From assembly GCA_014649555.1 (NCBI GenBank), contig BMTG01000005.1, positions 186,001 through 250,000 of the forward strand: a DNA stretch of 64,000 bases, given 5' to 3'. This DNA is from Streptomyces globisporus. GTDB lineage: Bacteria > Actinomycetota > Actinomycetes > Streptomycetales > Streptomycetaceae. Shown in pieces: positions 8,219 to 63,330 of the stretch (position 1 is its first letter; each line of letters opens with the position of its first letter). The notes beneath the pieces were generated by a model, which made no database searches, was not told the DNA's origin, and worked only from the letters and a program-made list of their open reading frames with translations. The translations under genes were made by a program, and so were the position numbers.

Positions 8219-9670
8219 TCAGGCCCAGGTGATGAGCCGCTTCGGCTGCTCCAGGATCGCCGCCACATCGGCCAGCACCTTGGAGCCCAGCTCGCCGTCG
8301 ACCAGGCGGTGGTCGAACGACAGGGCCAGCGTGGTGACCTGGCGCGGCTTCACCTTGCCCTTGTGGACCCACGGCTGGAGCTTGATCGCGCCGACCGCCA
8401 GGATCGCGGACTCGCCCGGGTTGAGGATCGGCGTACCGGTGTCGACGCCGAAGACGCCGACGTTGGTGATGGTCACCGTGCCGCCCGCCATCGCCGCCGG
8501 GGACGTCTTGCCGTCCCGGGCTGTGGTGACCAGCTCGCCCAGCGCCTCCGCGAGCTGCGGCAGCGTCTTGTCGTGCGCGTCCTTGATGTTCGGCACGATG
8601 AGACCGCGCGGGGTGGCCGCAGCGATGCCCAGGTTGACGTAGTGCTTCTGCACGATCTCCTGGTTGGCCTCGTCCCAGGCGGCGTTGACCTCGGGGTTCC
8701 GCTTGATCGCGACGAGGAGGGCCTTGGCGATGACGAGGAGCGGGTTGACCCGCACCCCCGCCATGTCCTTGTCCTCCTTGAGCTCGGCCACGAGCTTCAT
8801 CGTGCGCGTCACGTCGACCGTGACGAACTCGGTGACGTGCGGCGCGGTGAACGCGCTGCCCACCATCGCCTGCGCGATGGCCTTGCGGACGCCCTTGACC
8901 GGGATACGGGTCTCGCGGGCGGAGTCGGAGACAGCGGGGGGGAGAGCCGCTGCCGGGGCCTCGGGGGCCACCGGGGACGCGACCGCCGCGGGAGCCTCGG
9001 CAGCGGCCGGAGCCGCCGCCGCGTGGACGTCCTCGCGGGTGATGATGCCGTCCTTGCCGGTCGGCACCACCGTCGCCAGGTCGATGCCCAGGTCCTTGGC
9101 CAGCTTGCGGACCGGGGGCTTGGCGAGCGGGCGGCCACCTGCCGGAGCACCGGCCGGTGCGGTCGCCGCCGGTGCGGGAGCAGACGCCCCGTGCCCGTTC
9201 AGCTCGGCCTGCACCGCCGCCGCGACGGCAGCGGCCTCCGGAGCGGCGGCCGTCCCCTTGCGCGGGCGGCGCTTGGTGGAGGACTCGGCGACCCCGTAGC
9301 CCACCAGGACCGGCGTGCGGCCCTTCGGCTCGGCCTCGGCCTCCGGCGCCTCCACCGGCTCCTGGGCCGGAGCGGCGGCCGGGGCGGGCGCGTCGCCGCT
9401 GCCCGGTGCCACGTCGATCGCGATGATCACCTGGCCGACATCGACGGTCGTGCCCTCGGGGAAGCGCAGCTCGTGCACCACCCCGTCGAACGGGATCGGC
9501 AGCTCGACGGCCGCCTTCGCGGTCTCGACCTCGCACACGACCTGGCCGTCGGTGACGGTGTCGCCGGGCTGGACGAACCACTTGAGGATCTCGGCCTCGG
9601 TCAGTCCTTCGCCCACGTCGGGCATCTTGAACTCACGGAAACGAGCAGACGTTTCGGTCATCGTCGTCAC
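8219..9670 (-). CDS. bkdC1: BCDH complex E2, dihydrolipoamide acyltransferase (set 1)
   Basis: A 483-residue E2 with GTG start (in-frame ATG three codons later). Order of domains: lipoyl domain at residues 12-90 with lipoyl-lysine K52 in EVETAKAAVE; Ala/Pro-rich linker; RRPRKG basic patch; peripheral subunit-binding domain (RKLAKDLGIDLATVVPTGKDG); second linker; and the catalytic 2-oxoacid acyltransferase domain ending with LSFDHRLVDG, whose His is the active-site base. It transfers the branched acyl group from E1 to CoA. It is the last gene of an E1alpha-E1beta-E2 operon, 11 bp after E1beta. No E3 gene lies here, so the shared lipoamide dehydrogenase must be elsewhere. Confidence 0.93.
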   Translation of the reverse strand: MTTMTETSARFREFKMPDVGEGLTEAEILKWFVQPGDTVTDGQVVCEVETAKAAVELPIPFDGVVHELRFPEGTTVDVGQVIIAIDVAPGSGDAPAPAAAPAQEPVEAPEAEAEPKGRTPVLVGYGVAESSTKRRPRKGTAAAPEAAAVAAAVQAELNGHGASAPAPAATAPAGAPAGGRPLAKPPVRKLAKDLGIDLATVVPTGKDGIITREDVHAAAAPAAAEAPAAVASPVAPEAPAAALPPAVSDSARETRIPVKGVRKAIAQAMVGSAFTAPHVTEFVTVDVTRTMKLVAELKEDKDMAGVRVNPLLVIAKALLVAIKRNPEVNAAWDEANQEIVQKHYVNLGIAAATPRGLIVPNIKDAHDKTLPQLAEALGELVTTARDGKTSPAAMAGGTVTITNVGVFGVDTGTPILNPGESAILAVGAIKLQPWVHKGKVKPRQVTTLALSFDHRLVDGELGSKVLADVAAILEQPKRLITWA

Positions 9671-9681
9671 GAACCCTCTCC

Positions 9682-10662
9682 TCAGAACGCCAGCGAGCGG
9701 TCGACGGCGTCGAGCACCCGGTCCAGACCGGGCAGGTACTCGTCCTCCAGCCGGGCCGGCGGGTAGGGCACGCTGTAGCCGCCGACCCGCAGCACGGGGG
9801 CTTCGAGGTGGTAGAAGCAGCGCTCGGTGATCCGGGCGGCGATCTCCGCGCCGGAGCCGTAGAAGACGGGCGCCTCGTGGACGACCACGACCCGGCCGGT
9901 CTTCTCCGCCGACCTCTGGATGGCGTCGAAGTCGATCGGGGCCATCGAGCGCAGGTCCAGGACCTCGATCGACTTGCCCTCCTCCTGGGCGGCCGCGGCG
10001 GCCTCCAGGCAGACCTTGACCATCGGCCCGTACGCGACGAGCGTGAGGTCGCCGCCCTCGCGGGCGGTCACGGCCTTGTGCAGCGGGCCGGGGATGGACT
10101 CGGTGTCGACCTCGCCCTTGTCCCAGTAGCGCCGCTTGGGCTCGAAGAAGATGACCGGGTCGTCGCTCTGGACGGCCTGCTGCATCATCCAGTACGCGTC
10201 GCTCGCGTTGGACGGCGAGACCACCTTCAGGCCCGCGACGTGCGCGAAGAGCGCCTCGGGGGACTCGCTGTGGTGCTCGACCGCGCCGATGCCGCCGCCG
10301 TACGGAATGCGCACGACGACCGGCAGCTTGACCTTGCCGAGCGAGCGGGCGTGCATCTTGGCGAGCTGCGTGACGATCTGGTCGTACGCGGGGAAGACGA
10401 AGCCGTCGAACTGGATCTCGACGATGGGGCGGTAGCCGCGCAGGGCCAGGCCGATCGCCGTGCCGACGATGCCGGACTCGGCGAGCGGGGTGTCGATCAC
10501 CCGGTCCTCACCGAAGTCCTTCTGGAGCCCGTCGGTGATCCGGAAGACGCCGCCGAGCTTGCCGACGTCCTCACCCATGATGAGGACCTTGGGGTCGGTG
10601 TCGAGGGCGAGGCGGAGCGACTCGTTGAGCGCTTTCGCGATGGACATCTTTTCCACGGCCAT
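9682..10662 (-). CDS. bkdB1: BCDH E1 component beta subunit (set 1)
   Basis: A 326-residue transketolase-like E1 beta subunit. The pyrimidine-binding part shows LIMGEDVGKLGGVFRITDGL (Glu for TPP activation), DTPLAESGIVGTAIGLALRG and RIPYGGGIGAVEHHSESPEA with the conserved HHS. The C-terminal transketolase domain has VVVHEAPVFYGSGAEIAARI. With E1 alpha it forms the alpha2beta2 thiamine-diphosphate decarboxylase for 2-oxoacids from Val, Leu and Ile, feeding branched starter units for fatty acids. ATG at 10662 lies 2 bp after the E1 alpha stop, with its GAGGAGGG site inside the E1 alpha 3' end. Confidence 0.93.
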   Translation of the reverse strand: MAVEKMSIAKALNESLRLALDTDPKVLIMGEDVGKLGGVFRITDGLQKDFGEDRVIDTPLAESGIVGTAIGLALRGYRPIVEIQFDGFVFPAYDQIVTQLAKMHARSLGKVKLPVVVRIPYGGGIGAVEHHSESPEALFAHVAGLKVVSPSNASDAYWMMQQAVQSDDPVIFFEPKRRYWDKGEVDTESIPGPLHKAVTAREGGDLTLVAYGPMVKVCLEAAAAAQEEGKSIEVLDLRSMAPIDFDAIQRSAEKTGRVVVVHEAPVFYGSGAEIAARITERCFYHLEAPVLRVGGYSVPYPPARLEDEYLPGLDRVLDAVDRSLAF

Positions 10663-10664
10663 GG

Positions 10665-11825
10665 CTACTTGCCCTCCTCGGCAGAGTCGGCGAACGATGC
10701 CTGGTAGGCGGCGAACTGGGCGCGCTCCTCGTCCACGAGGGAGTTGCCGTCGGCGTAGGCGTGCTCGAACAGGGCCAGCGGCTCCGGGTCGGGCATCGCG
10801 CGTACCGCTTCCCGTACCCGCTTGCCGAGGGTCTCGCTCTCCTCCTCCAGGGCGGTGAAGAACGCCTCGTCGGCGTGGCCGGCCTTCTCCAGGTACGTCC
10901 GCAGCCGCAGGATCGGGTCCTTGGCCTCCCAGGCGGCCCGCTCCTCGTCGGCCCGGTACTTCGTCGGGTCGTCGGAGGTGGTGTGGGCGCCCATGCGGTA
11001 CGTGAACGCCTCGACGAGGGTCGGCCCCTCGCCCCGGCGGGCCCGCTCCAGCGCGGAGCGGGTGACGGCGAGACAGGCGAGGACGTCGTTGCCGTCCACG
11101 CGGACGCCGGGGAAGCCGAAGCCCTGGGCGCGCTGGTAGAGCGGCACGCGGGTCTGGCGCTCGGTGGGCTCGGAGATGGCCCACTGGTTGTTCTGGCAGA
11201 AGAAGACGACGGGGGCGTTGTAGACCGCGGAGAAGGTGAAGGACTCGGCGACGTCTCCCTGGCTGGAGGCGCCGTCACCGAAGTACGCGATCACGGCGGA
11301 GTCCGCACCGTCCTTGGCGACGCCCATGGCGTAGCCGGTGGCGTGCAGCGTCTGCGAGCCGATGACGATCGTGTACAGGTGGAAGTTGTTGCTGTTCGGG
11401 TCCCAGCCGCCGTGGTTCACGCCGCGGAACATGCCGAGCAGGTTGGTCGGGTCGACGCCGCGGCACCAGGCGACGCCGTGCTCCCGGTAGGTCGGGAAGA
11501 CGTAGTCGTCGTCGCGCAGGGCGCGGCCACTGCCGATCTGGGCGGCCTCCTGGCCGAGCAGCGAGGCCCACAGCCCCAGCTCGCCCTGACGCTGGAGGGC
11601 GGTCGCCTCGGCGTCGAAGCGGCGGGTGAGCACCATGTCCCGGTACAGACCGCGCAGCTCTTCCGCGCTCAGGTCGATGCTGTAGTCCGGGTGCTCGACG
11701 CGCTCGCCCTCGGGCGTCAGCAGCTGTACGAGCTGGGGCTCGGCGCTCTGCGGCTTCTTCGCGGCGCTGGTCCGCTTACTGGCGCGTCGCGGTTTACGCG
11801 CGGCGGCAGTGCTCTCCACGGTCAC
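10665..11825 (-). CDS. bkdA1: BCDH E1 component alpha subunit (set 1)
   Basis: A 386-residue thiamine-diphosphate-dependent subunit with GTG start behind GGAGGAG. The TPP motif is complete: [13 protein letters not shown] begins it (GDG) and CQNNQWAIS closes it (NN) about 30 residues later. The phosphorylation-loop region [16 protein letters not shown] is also conserved. A Lys/Arg/Ala-rich N-terminal extension (residues 1-28) is extra. It is the first gene of the operon; a 350-bp region separates it from the divergent response regulator, which may regulate it. Homologous to S. coelicolor bkdA1 by synteny, as recalled. Confidence 0.92.
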
Positions 11826-29060: not shown

Positions 29061-30503
29061 CTACAAGGTGCGCAGCAGCACCGCCGGCTGCTCCACGCAG
29101 TCCGCCACGTACCGGAGGAAGCCGCCCGCCGTTCCGCCGTCGCACACCCGGTGGTCGAAGGTCAGCGACAGCTGGACGACCTGACGTACGGCCAGTTCGC
29201 CCTGGTGCACCCAGGGTTTGGGCATGATCCGGCCCACGCCGAGCATCGCCGCCTCCGGGTGGTTGATGATCGGCGTCGAACCGTCGACCCCGAACACCCC
29301 GTAGTTGTTCAGCGTGAACGTGCCCCCGGTCAGCTGGGCCGGGCTGAGCTTCCCGGTACGCGCCAGCTCGGTCAGCCGGGCGATCTCGGCCCCGATCGAC
29401 TCGGCGTTACGGGCGTGCGCGTCCCGGACGACCGGAACGACGAGGCCCCGCTCGGTTTGGGCGGCGAACCCGAGGTGCACGCCGGACAGCCGGACGATCT
29501 CCCTGGCCTCCGTGTCCACCGTGGAGTTGAGCTCGGGGAACCGGGCCAGCGCCGCCGTGCAGATCCTCGCCAGCAGGGCCAGGACCGACACCTTCGGCCC
29601 GGCGGACGGGCCCGTGGCGGCGTTCATCGCGGCCCTGACCGCCATCAGCTCGGTGGCGTCGGCGTCGACCCAGCAGGTGGCGTCGGGAATCTCGGTCCGG
29701 CTGCGCGACAGCTTGTCGGCGACCGCTCCGCGCACCCCGCGCAGCGGAATCCGCTCGGCGTCCACAGCAGCGGCTACGCCGTTCGGGGCTGCCGCCACGG
29801 CTACCGCCGGGGCCTGGGCCTGCACCGGGGCTTGGGCCTGGGCCTGGGGCGCACGTGCCGTCGCCGTCGCGGTCTCCTCCGCCGTCCGGATCGCCCGGTC
29901 GACGTCGGCGCGCAGGATCAGCCCGTCGGGGCCCGAACCCGCCAGCCGCCGCAGATCGATGTCGTTCTGCCGGGCCAGTCGGCGTACCAGCGGAGAAACC
30001 ACCGGCACGGGCCCCTCGGACACCGAGGCGTCGGCAACCAGGACCTTGACCACGGGGGCTTCGAGCACCGGGGCCTTCACCACCGGCGCAGCGGAGACCG
30101 GGGCCTCGGTCACCGGCCGGTCGAGCCGGTCCGGGCGGATGCGCCGACGGCGGGCGGCCGGCGCGCCGGTCCCGTACCCCACGAGCACGTTCCCCGAGCC
30201 GCCCGAGGACTCAGGGGCGGAGCCGGAATCCTCACCGGAGCCGGAAGACCCCTCCGGTGCTCCGACGGCGACCGTCAGCAGCGGTGCGCCGACGGGAAGT
30301 TCCGTGCCCTCCTCGCCGAACCGTGCGGTCACCACGCCTCCGTAGGGGCAGGGCACCTCCACCATGGCCTTGGCCGTCTCGACCTCGACGACGGGCTGGT
30401 CGATGGCGACGACATCGCCGACCTCCACCAGCCAGCGGACGATCTCGGCCTCGGTCAGTCCCTCGCCGAGGTCCGGCAGCTTGAATTCGAGCACCTGGGC
30501 CAT
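29061..30503 (-). CDS. bkdC2: BCDH complex E2, dihydrolipoamide acyltransferase (set 2)
   Basis: A 480-residue E2. Lipoyl domain residues 3-78 with lipoyl-lysine K45 in VETAKAMVEV; linker with repeated APVVKAPVLEAPVVK-like segments; subunit-binding domain SPLVRRLARQNDIDLRRLAGSG; Gln/Ala linker (QAQAQAPVQAQAP); catalytic domain ending SLTFDHRVCDGG with the active His. ATG at 30503 overlaps the E1 beta stop (ATGA). It is a paralogue of bkdC1, but the linkers differ. It passes branched acyl groups to CoA. No E3 gene is in this operon. Confidence 0.92.
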   Translation of the reverse strand: MAQVLEFKLPDLGEGLTEAEIVRWLVEVGDVVAIDQPVVEVETAKAMVEVPCPYGGVVTARFGEEGTELPVGAPLLTVAVGAPEGSSGSGEDSGSAPESSGGSGNVLVGYGTGAPAARRRRIRPDRLDRPVTEAPVSAAPVVKAPVLEAPVVKVLVADASVSEGPVPVVSPLVRRLARQNDIDLRRLAGSGPDGLILRADVDRAIRTAEETATATARAPQAQAQAPVQAQAPAVAVAAAPNGVAAAVDAERIPLRGVRGAVADKLSRSRTEIPDATCWVDADATELMAVRAAMNAATGPSAGPKVSVLALLARICTAALARFPELNSTVDTEAREIVRLSGVHLGFAAQTERGLVVPVVRDAHARNAESIGAEIARLTELARTGKLSPAQLTGGTFTLNNYGVFGVDGSTPIINHPEAAMLGVGRIMPKPWVHQGELAVRQVVQLSLTFDHRVCDGGTAGGFLRYVADCVEQPAVLLRTL

Positions 30504-31534
30504 CAGCTGTCCGCCTCCCACTGCAGCCGGGCCACCGCGTCGAGCACCCGGTCCACTCCCGGCAGATGGTGCCGCTCCAGCATGGGCGGCGGGTAGGGGA
30601 TGTCGAACCCGGCCACCCGCAGCACCGGAGCCTCCAGATGGTGGAAGCACCGCTCCGTGATCCGGGCCGCGATCTCGCCGCCGGGCCCGCCGAAACCGGG
30701 GGACTCGTGCACGACGACCGCCCGTCCGGTGCGCCGCACCGACGCCGCCACCGTCTCGTCGTCGAACGGCACCAGCGAGCGCAGGTCCACCACTTCGAGG
30801 TCCCAGCCCTCGGCGAGGGCCGCTTCGGCGGCCTCCATGCAGACCGGCAGGGAGGGCCCGTACGTGATCAGAGTGGCGCTGCGCCCGGGTCGGCGCACCA
30901 CGGCCTTGCCGATCGGCTCGACCGCGGCGGGGGCCTCGGGCGACCAGTCGGCCTTGGACCAGTAGAGCCGCTTGGGCTCCAGGAAGACCACCGGGTCGTC
31001 CGAGGCGATCGACTCCCGCAGCAGCCCGTACGCGTCGTCGACCGTGGCCGGCGTGACGACGTGCAGGCCGGGGGTGGCCATGTAGTACGCCTCGGAGGAG
31101 TCGCTGTGGTGCTCGACCCCGCCGATCCCGCCGCCGTACGGCACGCGCACGGTGATCGGCAGCGGCATGGCTCCGCCGGTGCGGTTGCGCATCTTGGCGA
31201 CGTGGCTCATGAGCTGCTCGAACGCCGGGTAGGCGAACGCGTCGAACTGCATCTCCACGACGGGCCGCAGCCCGTACATCGCCATGCCGACGGCCGCGCC
31301 GAGGATGCCCGCCTCGGCCAGCGGGGTGTCGGTACAGCGGTCGTCGCCGAACTCCTTCGCCAGCCCGTCGGTGATCCGGAAGACCCCGCCGAGCGTGCCC
31401 ACATCCTCACCGAGCACATGGACGGTGGGGTCCTCGGCCATCGCGTCCCGGAGCGCGCGCCCGAGGGCCTGCGCCATCGTGGCCGGTTTCGCTTTCACGG
31501 GGCGGCCCTCGGCCGTCACTGCCGCCGTGGTCAT
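30503..31534 (-). CDS. bkdB2: BCDH E1 component beta subunit (set 2)
   Basis: A 343-residue paralogue of bkdB1. Conserved blocks: VHVLGEDVGTLGGVFRITDGL, DTPLAEAGILGAAVGMAMYG, RVPYGGGIGGVEHHSDSSEA and VVVHESPGFGGPGGEIAARI. A 20-residue N-terminal extension precedes the homology. ATG at 31534 overlaps the stop of bkdA2 (ATGA), and its own stop overlaps bkdC2, so all three subunits are translationally coupled, unlike set 1. It forms the E1 heterotetramer for 2-oxo acids of Val, Leu and Ile. Confidence 0.92.
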   Translation of the reverse strand: MTTAAVTAEGRPVKAKPATMAQALGRALRDAMAEDPTVHVLGEDVGTLGGVFRITDGLAKEFGDDRCTDTPLAEAGILGAAVGMAMYGLRPVVEMQFDAFAYPAFEQLMSHVAKMRNRTGGAMPLPITVRVPYGGGIGGVEHHSDSSEAYYMATPGLHVVTPATVDDAYGLLRESIASDDPVVFLEPKRLYWSKADWSPEAPAAVEPIGKAVVRRPGRSATLITYGPSLPVCMEAAEAALAEGWDLEVVDLRSLVPFDDETVAASVRRTGRAVVVHESPGFGGPGGEIAARITERCFHHLEAPVLRVAGFDIPYPPPMLERHHLPGVDRVLDAVARLQWEADS

Positions 31535-32691
31535 CGTCCTGCCTCCGGGCCGTGCTCGTCGTGGTCCTGCTCGGCGTCCAGCTCGGCGCGCAGGGCGGCG
31601 GCCTGCTCCCGGAGCTGACTCGTCTGCTCGGCGTACACATGGGTGAAGAGGTCCATCGGGGCAAGCTCCGGATCCGCGTTCATCCGGTCGCGCAGGGCGG
31701 CGGCCATGCGTTCGGCGGCCTCCTTCGCCTGTTCGATGCCCGCGTCGTCCAGCAGCCCGCGCTCCGTCAGCTCACGCTCCAGCAGTCGCACCGGGTCGTG
31801 CGCCTTCCACGCCTCGACCTCGCTGTCGACCCGGTAGCGGGTGGCGTCGTCGGCGTTGGTGTGGGCCTCCATGCGGTAGGTGACCGCCTCGACCAGCGTC
31901 GGGCCCTCGCCGCGCCGGGCGCGGCCTACGGCCTCGCTCAGCACCTGGTGCACCGCCGCCGCGTCGTTGCCGTCGACCAGGCGGCCCGGCATCCCGTATC
32001 CGACGGCTTTGTGGGCGAGGGAGGGGGCGGCGGTCTGCTTGGCCAGCGGCACGGAGATCGCGAAGCCGTTGTTCTGGACGAAGAAGACGACCGGGGCCTT
32101 CCAGACGGCCGCGAAATTCAGCGCCTCGTGGAAATCGCCCTCGCTGGTGCCGCCGTCGCCGACCATGGCGAGCGCCACCACGTCGTCGCCCTTGAGCCGG
32201 GCGGCGTGCGCCAGCCCCACGGCGTGCGGGAGCTGGGTGGCGAGCGGGGTGCACAGCGGGGCGATGCGGTGCTCGCGCGGGTCGTAACCGGTGTGCCGGT
32301 CGCCGCGCAGCAGGGTCAGCGCCTCGACCGGGTCCAGGCCGCGCGCGACGGCCGCGAGCGTGTCGCGGTAGCTGGGGAAGAGCCAGTCGTGCTCTTCCAG
32401 CACCAGAGCGGCGGCGATCTCGCACGCCTCCTGGCCGGTGCTCGACGGGTAGACCGCCAGCCGGCCCTGCTTCGTCAGCGCGGTGGCCTGGGCGTTGTAG
32501 CGACGCCCGCGCACCAGCTCCGCGTGGAGCCGGAGCAGCAGTTCGGGGTCGACGTCGGCGACCGCGTCCGTACCGAGCACCCGGTAGGGCTCCGGGTCCG
32601 GGAGCAGCGGGGCGGGGTCGGTGATCGGCTTCCAGGCCGGGGGCGGCGTGGGCCGGTAGGCGGCCGCGCCGGGCAGCTCTTGGACCGTCAT
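31531..32691 (-). CDS. bkdA2: BCDH E1 component alpha subunit (set 2)
   Basis: A 386-residue TPP-dependent subunit. GDGGTSEGDFHEALN starts and VQNNGFAIS ends the thiamine-diphosphate motif; the loop TYRMEAHTNADDATRYR matches the regulated phosphorylation loop region. ATG 32691 is preceded by AGGAGG. It heads the second BCDH operon, divergent from the Lrp-type gene bkdR. The shared 260-bp region has GTGTCGA repeats, a PaaR-like operator and DnaA boxes, so its control may be complex. Confidence 0.92.
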   Translation of the reverse strand: MTVQELPGAAAYRPTPPPAWKPITDPAPLLPDPEPYRVLGTDAVADVDPELLLRLHAELVRGRRYNAQATALTKQGRLAVYPSSTGQEACEIAAALVLEEHDWLFPSYRDTLAAVARGLDPVEALTLLRGDRHTGYDPREHRIAPLCTPLATQLPHAVGLAHAARLKGDDVVALAMVGDGGTSEGDFHEALNFAAVWKAPVVFFVQNNGFAISVPLAKQTAAPSLAHKAVGYGMPGRLVDGNDAAAVHQVLSEAVGRARRGEGPTLVEAVTYRMEAHTNADDATRYRVDSEVEAWKAHDPVRLLERELTERGLLDDAGIEQAKEAAERMAAALRDRMNADPELAPMDLFTHVYAEQTSQLREQAAALRAELDAEQDHDEHGPEAGR

Positions 32692-32836
32692 GAGAAGCAC
32701 CTCCTGGCATCGAGGGAGATCGAGGGTGTCGACCGGCGGTTTCGAGTCGATCGGCGGTGTCGATGGGTGTCGATGGTGTCGATCGGGAGAGAGACATCGG
32801 AAGCTGGGCGAGGCACGGGTGTGGTGTGCCTCACCT

Positions 32837-32850
32837 ACCGATTGTTCGGT
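32837..32850. promoter_or_regulatory. PaaR-like operator before bkdA2/bkdR
   Basis: ACCGATTGTTCGGT. Its reverse complement differs by a single base from the identical palindromes before paaN and paaA. It fits ACCGnnCGnnCGGT except for TG in place of the central CG. Confidence 0.6.
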
Positions 32851-32884
32851 CGCAAGCGCATTTTGGCTACAGGCACCACCAGCC

Positions 32885-32906
32885 TGTGGACAAACGGTTC
32901 TCCACA
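32885..32906. other. DnaA boxes in bkd control region
   Basis: TGTGGACAA (32885-32893) is a perfect Streptomyces-type DnaA box on the minus strand (TTGTCCACA). TTCTCCACA (32898-32906) fits the TTnTCCACA pattern 4 bp further on. Confidence 0.6.
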
Positions 32907-32951
32907 GCCTGGGATAGGTACAGGTCGTCCACGACAGGGAGGCGCGGGCCG

Positions 32952-33536
32952 ATGGCAGCTGAACAAATGGCCGACAGAGGCGAGGAGCAGGACCGGACCC
33001 CGCCCACCGCGACGCCGTCGGCCGCCGCCCCCGCGAGCCCGGCACCGGAGCCGGCCCCGGTTCCGCCCGCGCGGCCGCTGGACGCCGTCGACCGCGACAT
33101 CCTGCGGATCCTCCAGACGGACGGCCGCGCCTCGATACGGTCCGTGGCCGAGCGGGTCCATGTCTCGCGGGCCAACGCCTACGCCCGGATCAACCGGCTC
33201 GTCGAGGACGGCGTGATCCGCGGCTTCGGCGCCCGGGTCGACCACGAGCGGGCAGGTCAGGGGGCGTCCGCGTACATCACGCTCAAGATCGTGCAGAACT
33301 CCTGGCGCACCGTGCGCGAGCAGCTCCAGGCGCTGCCCGGGGCCACGCACATCGCCCTGGTCAGCGGCGACTTCGATGTACTGCTGCTGGTGCACACGCC
33401 GGACAACCGGGCGCTGCGCGAGCTGGTCCTCACCCGGATCCAGTCCATCCCCGAGGTGCTCTCTACGCGCACGCTGCTGGTGTTCGAGGAGACGGACCTC
33501 GGACCGCGCCCGGACCGGCCGGCCGAACTCGCCTGA
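32952..33536 (+). CDS. bkdR: Lrp/AsnC-family regulator of branched-chain catabolism
   Basis: A 194-residue regulator. After a 40-residue Pro/Ala-rich extension, LDAVDRDILRILQTDGRASIRSVAERVHVSRANAYARINRLVEDGVI forms the AsnC-type helix-turn-helix. A RAM/AsnC ligand domain follows (about 105-180, ATHIALVSGDFDVLLLVH). GGGAGG lies 9 bases before ATG 32952. It is divergent from bkdA2B2C2, the layout of S. coelicolor bkdR, which represses that operon. Ligand is likely a branched-chain amino acid. Confidence 0.9.
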   Translation: MAAEQMADRGEEQDRTPPTATPSAAAPASPAPEPAPVPPARPLDAVDRDILRILQTDGRASIRSVAERVHVSRANAYARINRLVEDGVIRGFGARVDHERAGQGASAYITLKIVQNSWRTVREQLQALPGATHIALVSGDFDVLLLVHTPDNRALRELVLTRIQSIPEVLSTRTLLVFEETDLGPRPDRPAELA

Positions 33537-33638: not shown

Positions 33639-34238
33639 TCAGCGGGCGCCGCCCGCCCGCATCCCTTCGAAAGCCAGCTGGACGACCGTGTCCGCGAGCT
33701 GCTCCTCCCCGGGGAAGCCGCCCGGCTGCGGCCGATACCACTCGACCAGCGAATTCACCATGCCGAACAGCAGCCGGGTCGCCAGCCGTATGTCCACGTC
33801 CGCCCGGAGGTCGCCCTCGGCCACCGCGGCCTGGAGCAGCTCCGCCACCCGCTGGTCGAACTCGCGGCGCCGCTCCAGCGCCCAGCGCTCCGTCTTCGTG
33901 TTTCCGCGCACCCGAAGCAGCAGGGTGACGTAGGGGACCTCCGCCATCAGCACGTCGACGGTCCGGCGCGTGACGTACTCGACCCGCTCGACCGCGCGCC
34001 CGCGCTGCGCCCCGGGCTCGTCGAGGATGGCGAAGAGCCCGTCGAGCGCCCGGCTCACGGCCCGGCGCAGCAGCTCCTCCTTGCCCGCCACATGGTGGTA
34101 GATGGAGGATTTCGAGATACCCGCCGCCCGGGAGAGATGCTCCATGGACGTGCCGTCGTAGCCGCGCTCGTTGAAGACACGGACGGCGACGGTGAGCAGG
34201 GTCTCCGGTGTGTACGTGTCCCGCTTGGCCGTGGTCAT
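33639..34238 (-). CDS. paaR: TetR-family regulator, PaaR type
   Basis: A 199-residue TetR regulator. Helix-turn-helix at about residues 28-52 (GYDGTSMEHLSRAAGISKSSIYHHVAGKE); the rest is a helical ligand domain. ATG 34238 is preceded by GGGAGGAT at a 9-bp distance; longer starts upstream would overlap the DnaA box region. It is divergent from paaN. Its probable operator ACCGATCGTTCGGT lies between the two, an identical site is before paaA, and the pattern matches the Corynebacterium PaaR core ACCGnnCGnnCGGT as recalled. Probable repressor released by phenylacetyl-CoA. Confidence 0.82.
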   Translation of the reverse strand: MTTAKRDTYTPETLLTVAVRVFNERGYDGTSMEHLSRAAGISKSSIYHHVAGKEELLRRAVSRALDGLFAILDEPGAQRGRAVERVEYVTRRTVDVLMAEVPYVTLLLRVRGNTKTERWALERRREFDQRVAELLQAAVAEGDLRADVDIRLATRLLFGMVNSLVEWYRPQPGGFPGEEQLADTVVQLAFEGMRAGGAR

Positions 34239-34327: not shown

Positions 34328-34341
34328 ACCGATCGTTCGGT
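34328..34341. promoter_or_regulatory. PaaR operator before paaN
   Basis: ACCGATCGTTCGGT between the divergent paaR and paaN genes. Its reverse complement is identical to the site before paaA. It sits about 55 bp from the paaN start, immediately followed by TTACTCTAAC, a likely -10 region, so a bound repressor would block paaN. Confidence 0.8.
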
Positions 34342-34395: not shown

Positions 34396-36096
34396 ATGGC
34401 CTCCGCGCTCACCCCCCAGCAGCTGTCCGAGACCCACCGGCCCACGCTCGACCAGGCCCTCGACGTGATCAGTACCCGCGCGTACTGGTCCCCGCACCCC
34501 GAGCACCCGAAGGCGTACGGCGAGGGCGGCGCCCCGGGCAGCCTGGGTGCGGCCGAGGGCAAGGCCGCCTTCGACGCAGTTCTGGGCACCCGGTTCGACC
34601 TGGGCCAGCCGGGCACCGACGGCTGGGCCGGCGGCGAGGTCTCGCCGTACGGTCCGGAGCTCGGTGTCGAGTATCCGCACGTCGACCCGGACATCCTGCT
34701 GCCGGCGATGAAGGCCGGCACGGCCGCCTGGCGGGCGGCGGGTCCGGAGGTCCGGGCCCTGGTCTGTCTGGAGATCCTGTCGCGGATCAGCGCCCGCACC
34801 CATGAGCTGGCCCACGCCGTGATGCACACGAGCGGCCAGGCCTTCATGATGGCGTTCCAGGCGGGCGGCCCGCACGCCCAGGACCGCGGCCTGGAGGCCG
34901 TGGCGTACGCCTACCGCGAGCAGGTCCGCACCCCCGAGAACGCCGACTGGTCGAAGCCGCAGGGCAAGCGCGATCCGCTGAAGCTGCACAAGTCGTTCAT
35001 CACGTCCGGCCGCGGCGTCGCGCTGGTCATCGGCTGCAACACGTTCCCCACGTGGAACGGCTATCCCGGCCTCTTCGCCTCCCTCGCCACGGGCAACCCG
35101 GTGCTGGTCAAGCCCCACCCGCGCGCGGTACTCCCGCTGGCGCTCACCGTGTCCATCGCCCGTGAGGTCCTCGGCGAGGCGGGCTTCGACCCGAATCTGG
35201 TGGCGCTGGCCGTCGAGCGGCCCGGCGAGGGCATCGCCAAGGCCCTGGCCGTCCGCCCCGAGGTCCGGATCATCGACTACACCGGCTCGACCGCCTTCGG
35301 CGACTGGCTGGAGGAGAACGCCCGCCAGGCCCAGGTCTACACGGAGAAGGCCGGCGTCAACACGATCGTCGTCGACTCCACCGACGACTACCGGGGCATG
35401 CTGGCCAACCTGGCGTTCTCCCTCTCGCTGTACAGCGGCCAGATGTGCACGACCCCGCAGAATCTGCTGATCCCCCGGGACGGCATCGCCACCGACGACG
35501 GCGCCAAGTCCTACGACGACGTGGTCGCCGACCTCTCGGCCGCCGTCACCAAGCTGCTCGGCGACGACGCCCGCGCGTCCGCCCTGCTCGGCGCGCTGGT
35601 CAACCCGGACGTCAAGGCCCGGCTGGAGGCCGCGGGAGGGCTGGGCGAGGTCGCCCTGCCCTCGCGGACGGTCGCCAACGCCGAATTCCCCGACGCGGCC
35701 GTCCGCACGCCGGTCGTCGTGAAGCTCGACGGCACCAAGCCCGACGACGGCGCGGCCTACTTCTCGGAGTGCTTCGGGCCGGTGTCCTTCGCCGTCGCCG
35801 TCGAGTCGACGTCCGCCGCCCTGGACCTGCTCCGCCGCACGATCCGGGAGCAGGGCGCCATGACGGTCGGGGCGTACACCACCTCCCCCGAGGTGGAGCG
35901 CGCCATCGAGGACGTCTGCCTGGACGAGTCGGCCCAGCTCTCGCTGAACCTGACCGGCGGGGTGTACGTCAACCAGACCGCCGCCTTCTCCGACTTCCAC
36001 GGCTCCGGCGGCAACCCGGCGGCCAACGCGGCCCTGTGCGACGCGGCCTTCGTCGCCAACCGCTTCCGCGTGGTGGAGGTGCGCCGCCAGGCGTAG
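34396..36096 (+). CDS. paaN: Phenylacetic acid degradation protein PaaN (aldehyde dehydrogenase family)
   Basis: A 566-residue protein. The aldehyde dehydrogenase fold is clear: NAD site region RGVALVIGCNTFPTWNGYPGLFASLATGNPVLVKPHPRA, IIDYTGSTAFGDWL, YTEKAGVNT and the active-site Cys in YSGQMCTTPQN. It lacks the C-terminal MaoC-like hydratase domain of E. coli PaaZ (681 residues), so it may only oxidise the semialdehyde formed on ring opening of oxepin-CoA; a separate hydratase is needed. AGGAG lies 10 bases before ATG 34396. It is controlled by a PaaR-type operator. Confidence 0.92.
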   Translation: MASALTPQQLSETHRPTLDQALDVISTRAYWSPHPEHPKAYGEGGAPGSLGAAEGKAAFDAVLGTRFDLGQPGTDGWAGGEVSPYGPELGVEYPHVDPDILLPAMKAGTAAWRAAGPEVRALVCLEILSRISARTHELAHAVMHTSGQAFMMAFQAGGPHAQDRGLEAVAYAYREQVRTPENADWSKPQGKRDPLKLHKSFITSGRGVALVIGCNTFPTWNGYPGLFASLATGNPVLVKPHPRAVLPLALTVSIAREVLGEAGFDPNLVALAVERPGEGIAKALAVRPEVRIIDYTGSTAFGDWLEENARQAQVYTEKAGVNTIVVDSTDDYRGMLANLAFSLSLYSGQMCTTPQNLLIPRDGIATDDGAKSYDDVVADLSAAVTKLLGDDARASALLGALVNPDVKARLEAAGGLGEVALPSRTVANAEFPDAAVRTPVVVKLDGTKPDDGAAYFSECFGPVSFAVAVESTSAALDLLRRTIREQGAMTVGAYTTSPEVERAIEDVCLDESAQLSLNLTGGVYVNQTAAFSDFHGSGGNPAANAALCDAAFVANRFRVVEVRRQA

Positions 36097-39107: not shown

Positions 39108-39121
39108 ACCGAACGATCGGT
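39108..39121. promoter_or_regulatory. PaaR operator before paaA
   Basis: ACCGAACGATCGGT, the exact reverse complement of the site before paaN, 16 bp from the paaA start. A further CGGT follows at once. Occupancy would cover the paaABCDE transcription start. Confidence 0.8.
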
Positions 39122-39137: not shown

Positions 39138-40247
39138 ATGGCGGCAGTGACTGCGCACCAGACGACGCAGAAGACCCTCGGCACGGCGAATGCGGCGGGC
39201 GGAGCGGGTTCTACGGCTGCGGCAGGTGAGACGGACGCGGCGGCTGCGGACCACCTCGCGGCCTTCGACGCGGCCGTGGCGGCGGACGAGCGGATCGAGC
39301 CGCGCGACTGGATGCCGGACGCCTACCGGGCGACGCTGATCCGCCAGATGGCCCAGCACGCCCACTCGGAGATCATCGGCATGCAGCCCGAGGCCAACTG
39401 GATCACCCGGGCGCCCTCGCTGCGCCGCAAGGCGATCCTCATGGCCAAGGTGCAGGACGAGGCGGGCCACGGCCTGTATCTCTACAGCGCCGCCGAGACC
39501 CTGGGCACCAGCCGCGAGGAGCTGCTCGACAAGCTCCACGCGGGCCGCCAGCGCTATTCGTCGATCTTCAACTACCCCACGCTGACCTGGGCCGACGTCG
39601 GCGCCATCGGCTGGCTGGTCGACGGCGCGGCGATCACCAACCAGGTGCCGCTCTGCCGCTGCTCCTACGGCCCCTACGCCCGCGCGATGGTCCGGATCTG
39701 CAAGGAGGAGTCCTTCCACCAGCGCCAGGGATACGAGCTGCTGCTCGCCCTCAGCCGTGGCACCGAGGCCCAGCACGCCATGGCCCAGGACGCGGTGAAC
39801 CGCTGGTGGTGGCCCTCCCTGATGATGTTCGGCCCGCCCGACGACGCCTCGTCGCACTCCGAGCAGTCCATGGCCTGGAAGATCAAGCGGCACTCCAACG
39901 ACGAGCTGCGCCGGCGCTTCGTCGACATCTGCGTGCCCCAGGCCGAAGCGTTGGGCCTGGAGCTCCCGGACCCCGACATCCGGTGGAACGAGGAGCTGGG
40001 CGGCCACGACTTCGGCGCGATCGACTGGTCGGAGTTCCAGGAGGTCCTCAAGGGCAACGGCCCTTGCAACGAACAGCGGATCACCCAGCGGCGCAGGGCC
40101 CACGAGGAGGGCGCCTGGGTCCGGGACGCGGCAGCCGCGTACGCCGCCAAGCACGCCCCGGCACAGACATCGCCCCGGACACCGGCATCGGCATCGGCAT
40201 CGGCACCGACCAGCGCGTCCGCGCAGCATGTGGAGGAGACGGCATGA
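39138..40247 (+). CDS. paaA: 1,2-phenylacetyl-CoA epoxidase catalytic subunit PaaA
   Basis: A 369-residue ferritin-like diiron oxygenase. Two ExxH sites are visible: E108-A-G-H111 and E191-S-F-H194, the diiron ligands. The N-terminal 48 residues and a C-terminal Ala/Ser/Thr-rich tail are extra. With PaaC it forms the oxygenase that epoxidises the aromatic ring of phenylacetyl-CoA. First gene of paaABCDE, behind a PaaR-type operator. The stop overlaps paaB (ATGA). Confidence 0.95.
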
Positions 40248-62995: not shown

Positions 62996-63330
62996 CGGAC
63001 CCCTTCCGCTCCGTCGCTCCCGGGCACGCAAGCGCGCCCGTAGCTGGTCGACGCCCTTCCGCGCAAGCCTTGCCCTGAGTTACCCACAGAGTTATCCACA
63101 GTCGGGGGAAAAGGTCAGACGATCTGTGGATAACCTCCACTGAAGTTGACGCCGGTGTGACTGCAGCCCCCCTCGCCGAGGGGGGCTGCAGCCCGTTGTC
63201 CCGGCGGAAAAGCCCAGTTCAGCGACAAGGGGCACACCTGTTCCTCTTGCCATGCACAAGATTCCGCGCACACTGTGGACAACTTCGGTCAGGCTGGGGG
63301 TGAAGAGCCCCTTCTCGCCGACCCTGCCGC
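62996..63330. other. DnaA-box cluster between crgA and rhomboid gene
   Basis: A 335-bp gene-free region. Boxes: TTACCCACA (63080, one mismatch), TTATCCACA (63092), TTATCCACA on the minus strand (63125-63133) and TTGTCCACA on the minus strand (63274-63282). In the middle a 14-bp perfect hairpin (63161-63191) serves as terminator. Out-of-oriC DnaA clusters are known in S. coelicolor near crgA (H69 cluster, as recalled). Confidence 0.75.
63161..63191. terminator. Bidirectional terminator within the DnaA-box cluster
   Basis: Perfect 14-bp stem CTGCAGCCCCCCTC with GCC loop, between convergent crgA and rhomboid genes. Confidence 0.85.

Follow-up and report, generated by a model that had tools for sequence, protein, structure and literature searches.

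A near-fixed PaaR-type operator between bkdA2 and bkdR in Streptomyces: a probable link between phenylacetate regulation and a 2-oxoacid dehydrogenase operon

In the 64,000-nucleotide stretch of Streptomyces globisporus DNA analyzed here (contig BMTG01000005.1, positions 186,001 to 250,000; hereafter, the window), a putative operator of the phenylacetate regulator PaaR, ACCGATTGTTCGGT (32837–32850, plus strand), is found between the divergent genes bkdA2 and bkdR. It has a TG centre, which reads CA on the minus strand, and is located 146 nt upstream of the bkdA2 ATG (32691, minus strand), with the bkdR ATG (32952) placed 101 nt downstream. A preliminary description of this DNA had reported the site and its single base difference from the sites of paaN and paaA. 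Exact matching confirmed both statements: the site has T for C at position 7 of the sequence ACCGATCGTTCGGT that precedes both paaN (34328–34341, plus strand) and paaA (39108–39121, minus strand). This palindrome is probably a working PaaR operator acting on the bkdA2B2C2 promoter, through which the operon would be induced together with the paa genes, likely for phenylacetyl-CoA supply. At the sequence level, the basis of this proposal is the site itself, its near-fixation, its association with PaaR, the occurrence of a like site at paaK, and the rows of bkd and paa genes found in other lineages. The original observation was, in fact, right and stronger than a reader of the sequence alone could have known.

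The pattern ACCGATYGTTCGGT was found three times in the 8.25-Mb genome of the strain, exactly at the bkd, paaN and paaA sites, which together span 6.3 kb, and its reversed control gave no match in the same genome. Within the window, the three matches obtained at two or fewer mismatches compare with a mean of 0.23 in 100 shuffles, only one of which reached three, and base composition predicts 0.015 occurrences of the exact 14-mer per genome. The half-sites alone are not specific, since the looser ACCGANNNNTCGGT matches this genome 29 times. Additionally, with the central base change, 10 positions of the 14-mer are self-complementary, against 12 of 14 without it, and the bkd site is therefore a poorer palindrome than its neighbours.

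The conservation of the site was evaluated in the top 80 among 501 BkdR loci from named genome contigs, ranked on their BkdR similarity without regard to the site; 79 of them are titled Streptomyces and one [Kitasatospora] papulosa. The exact 14-mer was present upstream of bkdR in 79 of the 80 loci, the exception (L065) carrying AACGATTGTTCGGT, and it was also recovered in 288 of 295 Streptomyces genomes, in a single copy in each except G185. The reversed control pattern gave one match in these 295 genomes (G019). Therefore, the supposedly variant base is fixed and does not reflect drift. Conservation across Streptomyces, which the preliminary description had proposed as a check, was thereby borne out in both samples, and its label of a variant operator proved misleading, given that the base is conserved and that the CA/TG centre recurs at paaK.

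Palindromic PaaR-type sites precede, at the sequence level, not only paaN and paaA but also the unlinked paaK. The paaK site, ACCGATCATTCGGT, is CA-centred and located at G000:C6:236530–236543 (L173:6531–6544), 28 nt before the start of the gene, whose product, a phenylacetate-CoA ligase, scored 722 bits against TIGR02155 (cut-off 646). The paaK sites were examined in the loci opened from the pattern search, where paaK was present in 8 of 30, and all eight sites were CA/TG-centred though the pattern allowed CG. In five of these loci no more than 50 nt separate the site from the start of paaK; in the remaining three the site is farther away or paaK is partly aligned, with paaA-like or paaN-like genes on the other side. 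Because all eight sites share this centre, the CA/TG-centred sites constitute, judging from this comparison, a recurrent class at a gene with an undoubted phenylacetate link.

The regulator is encoded next to the site. The paaR gene (33639–34238, minus strand), divergent to paaN, specifies a TetR regulator (PF00440, 56.7 bits, cut-off 24, plus TetR_C_24), and it was present in 79 of the 80 bkdR loci, the contig ending before paaR in the remaining one. The best structure match of the protein was SCO3833 (PDB 2IAI; E 7.7e-89), of which, by similarity, it is a close homologue and, by position, the orthologue. Among the 295 Streptomyces genomes, with PaaR scored at E ≤ 1e-50, PaaR was present in 289, and 287 of these carried the 14-mer, the two others having a masked gap (G010) or one mismatch (G231). 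Of the six genomes in which PaaR was absent, one (G198) carried the 14-mer; the draft assembly of this genome, 81% complete and with a paaA operator retained, may lack a paaR that the organism has. In a family draw of 200 genomes, where PaaR was defined by an E value below 1e-80, it was found in 189 genomes, and the 14-mer in 188 of them, the sole exception (G452) having one mismatch at the expected place. The placement of the family matches at bkd was checked in 26 of 29 opened loci and in the other opened loci that reached the gap. Among the other 11 family genomes, in which PaaR was weak or absent, the 14-mer was found at bkd only in G461, beside a PaaR gene reading in two frames. The matches of G298 and G323 and the second match of G307 lie elsewhere than bkd and were left out of the bkd count; chance alone gives about three matches of this kind in 200 genomes. 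Fisher tests gave 7e-9 for the Streptomyces genomes and 5e-15 for the family draw, values that ignore kinship and joint loss and, consequently, overstate the case.

Genomes that lack PaaR or part of its regulon were also compared. G303 (93% complete) has kept bkdA2–bkdR and has neither PaaR nor PaaA, and nothing within three mismatches of the site was found in its bkdA2–bkdR region. In G037, G156 and G270, which have bkdR without PaaR, the palindrome reads ACAGATTGTTCGAA or ACCGATTGTTCGAA, with the outer arms broken and the core kept. G009 has no PaaA, yet it retains PaaR, paaN and the bkd site. The proposal of the preliminary description that the phenylacetate regulator also touches the bkd operon is thus upheld by comparison, the site being near-fixed, going with PaaR, being broken or absent in the four genomes above, and sharing its CA/TG centre with paaK; the purpose that it assigned to this link, considered below, is another matter. 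A regulatory link between PaaR and bkd appears, on these comparative grounds, well supported. It is very improbable that another TetR protein with a similar operator, instead of PaaR, uses the site: TetR proteins are many in Streptomyces genomes (up to at least 16 per genome among the matches listed), and the half-site pattern has its 29 places in the S. globisporus genome, but the exact site tracks PaaR presence, its CA/TG centre recurs at paaK, and paaR adjoins it.

Regarding the manner in which PaaR would act, the minus-strand reading of the bkd site is ACCG-AACAAT-CGGT, so that the proposed –10 box of bkdA2, AACAAT (32841–32846, minus strand; 80 of 80 loci), would be embedded in the operator, with a proposed –35 box, TAGCCA (32864–32869, minus strand; 79 of 80 loci), at a spacer of 17. 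Elsewhere, in 26 further loci, 25 of which come from ten other genera, the –35 place holds TAGCCA, TGGCCA, TGGTCA or TAGTCA at 17-nt spacing in 14 cases, one of these words displaced by a single base in 10, and TAGCCG in two. The fixed central base would be explained by this layout, because the change from CG to CA turns AACGAT into AACAAT, which is nearer the –10 consensus. Since the site covers the likely bkdA2 –10 box, repression of bkdA2B2C2 is the simplest reading. Phenylacetyl-CoA is the releasing ligand in the PaaR family. In the succession of steps that we infer as to binding, repression, inducer, promoter boxes and substrate, PaaR, the TetR repressor encoded next door, would bind the bkd site and block the –10 region of the bkdA2B2C2 promoter, and the build-up of phenylacetyl-CoA would release it, inducing the bkd operon along with paaN, paaABCDE and the unlinked paaK. 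The BkdR-linked dehydrogenase would then make, or help to make, phenylacetyl-CoA from phenylpyruvate, or handle the products of that route.

The divergent bkdR seems to have a promoter of its own, TGGACA-N17-TGGGAT (32887–32915, plus strand), with GTGGACA in 79 of the 80 loci and, at the –10 place, TGGGAT in 65, TGAGAT in 9 and other words in 5. This proposed promoter overlaps an imperfect 24-bp palindrome, CTGTGGACAAACGGTTCTCCACAG (32884–32907; 20 of 24 positions self-complementary), which lies inside a conserved block and is possibly a BkdR autoregulation site or a pair of DnaA-like boxes. The use of the central T of the operator in a –35 box (TTGTTC) for bkdR was considered and dropped, as no acceptable –10 box was found 16–18 nt on, whereas the boxes TAGCCA-N17-AACAAT can be placed on the minus strand and TGGACA-N17-TGGGAT farther along the plus strand. 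It could be argued that PaaR binds the site but that its relevant target is bkdR, the dehydrogenase being affected only through this regulator, considering that bkdR is divergent and 101 nt from the site and that the core GATTGTTCG precedes bkdR in G037, G156 and G270, where bkdA2 does not adjoin. However, the likely bkdR promoter starts 36 nt beyond the operator, which overlaps the likely bkdA2 –10 box instead, and we regard this target as improbable.

Several observations weigh against a PaaR operator acting on bkdA2B2C2. Most of the bkdA2–bkdR gap is conserved within Streptomyces, forming a broad block around the palindrome, whose conservation alone, therefore, does not single it out. PaaR is kept in G231 and G452 beside a site with one mismatch. 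Part of the association between site and PaaR reflects joint loss of the locus, since G001 and G121 have neither a PaaR nor a BkdR orthologue, which makes them uninformative, five of the 11 family genomes lacking a strong PaaR match (G295, G298, G308, G311 and G321) have no close BkdA2, and a sixth, G325, has a fragment only. The core GATTGTTCG persists without PaaR in G037, G156 and G270, and therefore part of the sequence has another job; in these genomes bkdA2 does not adjoin bkdR, and no operator was found at their paaA genes, which, at 71–72%, belong to another lineage, so that the missing operator is not a clean loss. In G313, a PaaR with 62% identity is present, paaN is preceded by a CA-centred site and paaA by a related sequence, but no site was found at the bkd genes; therefore, the link between PaaR and bkd is not universal. 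As to the promoter, a strict sigma-70 consensus scan of 32600–33000 detected none, and the proposed bkdA2 boxes match the consensus at four of six positions each, eight of 12 together. Finally, the PaaR consensus of Corynebacterium glutamicum, which we take to be ACCG-NN-CG-NN-CGGT (our literature search found no paper with those letters), has a fixed CG centre that agrees with the paaN and paaA sites and disagrees with the bkd (TG) and paaK (CA/TG) sites. We know of no bkd link for the C. glutamicum regulator.

The wide conserved block, the core that survives in three genomes without PaaR, and the joint loss of the whole locus would also suit a mere core promoter or BkdR-binding sequence that resembles a PaaR operator by chance. 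This explanation is scarcely credible, since in 25 loci of ten other genera, which were chosen by the 14-mer, the flanks have diverged and the 14-mer is exact, the unselected figure being 188 of 189, and since the outer arms, dispensable for a promoter, are what breaks without PaaR.

The purpose of a PaaR operator at this place depends on the dehydrogenase. The BkdR-linked complex is encoded in a row by bkdA2 (E1 alpha; 31531–32691, minus strand; TIGR03181, 424 bits, cut-off 411), bkdB2 (E1 beta; 30503–31534, minus strand; identified by profile search) and bkdC2 (E2 acyltransferase; 29061–30650, minus strand), whose product has lipoyl, E3-binding and catalytic domains. The profile passed by bkdA2 is named pyruvate dehydrogenase (PDH) E1 alpha, and PDH also gave the best structure match (7e-61), with branched-chain 2-oxoacid dehydrogenase (BCDH) lower (9e-49). 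In Embleya sp. NBC_00896 (L241), bkdA, bkdB, bkdC, paaN, a thiolase gene, paaA, paaC and paaE follow in this order on one strand, with 1.7 kb before paaA without a named gene. G323 (L235, G323:C31) shows the same order as far as the stretch reaches, with 2.4 kb unnamed, and its E1 groups with that of Embleya in the tree, while in G037 (L234, G037:C32) bkdABC, an enoyl-CoA hydratase gene, paaA, paaC and paaE share one strand. Some lineages thus have the bkd and paa genes in one row, and in others the operator may join them. Tsukamurella, Rhodococcus and Nonomuraea have bkdR-bkdABC without paaA, paaC or paaE within 12 kb, and, consequently, an aromatic role is not necessarily the older one for the complex. 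The bkd-paa genes of G037, separate from its bkdR, appear to represent a set of a different lineage (E1 alpha 61%).

A further comparison concerned PglB and PglC of the L-phenylglycine pathway, an E1 alpha/beta pair like BkdA2/BkdB2, for which the comparison covered look-alikes on three plasmids. Three of five Streptomyces plasmid matches were opened, and these linear plasmids (L237, L238 and L242) carry pgl-like gene sets in nonribosomal peptide synthetase clusters, with a DpgC-like neighbour and, unlike the bkd operon, no E2 annotated beside the pair. Their E1 pairs share 57–61% (alpha) and 74% (beta) identity with BkdA2/BkdB2; the corresponding values for the window's other BCDH operon (8231–11723) are 42% and 56%. 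The pgl-like E1 alpha is, however, no closer to BkdA2 than are its BkdR-linked counterparts from Embleya or Tsukamurella. Phylogenetically, E1 alpha sequences from pgl and BkdR-linked pairs group in a single clade (17 rows, 100/99), separate from that of the other window operon, the placement of pgl inside this clade being weakly supported (83/77 for E1 alpha, 81/73 for E1 beta). PglB/PglC have been suggested, in the part of the source available, to convert phenylpyruvate to phenylacetyl-CoA (PMC7089894). Given the E1 clade shared with the PglB/PglC-like pairs and the bkd-paa gene rows, a phenylpyruvate activity of the bkdA2B2C2 complex would be plausible. We consider it possible, although the chances fall short of even, that the BkdR-linked complex of nearly all Streptomyces is at least partly a phenylpyruvate dehydrogenase, making phenylacetyl-CoA without phenylacetate and PaaK, that it belongs to the PaaR regulon for this reason, and that PglB/PglC arose from its clade.

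The preliminary description had assigned the link another purpose, namely that PaaR tunes branched-chain oxidation to balance acyl-CoA supply, with no shared substrate. It can be said for this reading that the BkdR-adjoining operon is named branched-chain in Streptomyces coelicolor (PMC12323332) and that bkdR deletion alters pamamycin production (PMC8176718), as far as the accessible text of these sources goes. However, no data were found that point to balancing, and the gene rows together with the E1 phylogeny and the PglB/PglC-like kinship suggest a direct route. Acyl-CoA balancing is therefore held to be unlikely, though still worth serious consideration, and a direct tie of the bkd operon to phenylacetyl-CoA seems the better guess.

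Among known systems, the second-best solved structure for the window PaaR was 3vpr, which we take to be PfmR (TTHB023) of Thermus thermophilus, a regulator whose second pathway is, in contrast, fatty acid metabolism and not a 2-oxoacid dehydrogenase. The Streptomyces pristinaespiralis PaaR (SSDG_03033) is likewise a TetR repressor of paa genes, and its putative site, AACGA-N4-TCGGT (PMC10933834), is one letter off the sites described here: the bkd, paaN and paaA sites of the window fit it except at the second letter, and the bkd site of L065 fits it fully. That review also names the homologue of C. glutamicum, but, in the portion available, it refers to paa genes only and does not contain the term bkd. 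That a TetR regulator can control a BCDH operon is already known from PccD, which is said to act directly on such an operon in Saccharopolyspora erythraea (PMC8176718), although PccD/AccR-type regulators have a different operator (PMC10933834) and no phenylacetate genes are named for them in the sections seen. SCO3831 and SCO3832 are named bkdA2 and bkdR in the excerpt available of PMC12323332, in agreement with the window genes. The main text of a 2026 survey of phenylacetate pathways (PMC13186573) does not contain the term bkd. No PaaR-bkd link was found in the literature searched, in the portions available; the primary study of the S. pristinaespiralis PaaR (Zhao 2015) falls outside that coverage, and novelty is thus unproven. 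SCO3833 is not mentioned in the accessible parts of the literature checked for it.

Streptomyces draw on BCDH complexes for antibiotic starter units and fatty acid primers. If PaaR gates the bkd operon, phenylacetyl-CoA would be a signal reaching both branched-chain and aromatic precursor supply, and attempts to raise pristinamycin or phenylglycine yield by changing paaR or paa genes (PMC10933834 and PMC7089894) would carry a second, so far unnoticed effect. The same link would provide a function and a regulon for SCO3833, whose structure (2IAI) is solved but labelled a putative regulator only. If, additionally, the phenylpyruvate activity is real, it would represent a route for phenylalanine carbon into the phenylacetate pathway in Streptomyces.

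The remaining genes of this region of the window comprise bkdR (32952–33536, plus strand), an Lrp/AsnC regulator identified by profile search, paaN (34396–36096, plus strand; TIGR02288, 959 bits, cut-off 579) and paaA (39138–40247, plus strand; TIGR02156, 509 bits, cut-off 280), the first gene of the paa epoxidase operon. The other BCDH operon of the window is a more distant relative, with an E2 value of 38% against the BkdR-linked operon in addition to the E1 values given above, and no ACCGANNNNTCGGT was found near it.

The motif TT(A/C/G)TCCACA was observed 263 times in the 80 loci (1.26 Mb), 257 of these occurrences being within 110 bp of a PaaR-type site, and it was found beside 79 of 80 bkd, 46 of 79 paaN and 59 of 68 paaA sites; in the window, it occurs at 32885, 32898, 34294 and 39054, and also at 63092, 63125 and 63274. 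No copy was found at the paaA genes of G452 and G010, at any of nine paaK loci examined, or in the vicinity of bkdR in Embleya, Tsukamurella, Nonomuraea and Rhodococcus. The motif equals what we take to be the DnaA box, and it may therefore mark nearness to the replication origin. Due to these absences and to the DnaA-box likeness, its interpretation as a motif tying BkdR to the paa promoters was set aside. Finally, in G010 (L125, G010:C2) paaR is found on the bkdR strand, and a ACCGAACGATCGGT site precedes the paaR start, an arrangement that would allow autoregulation.
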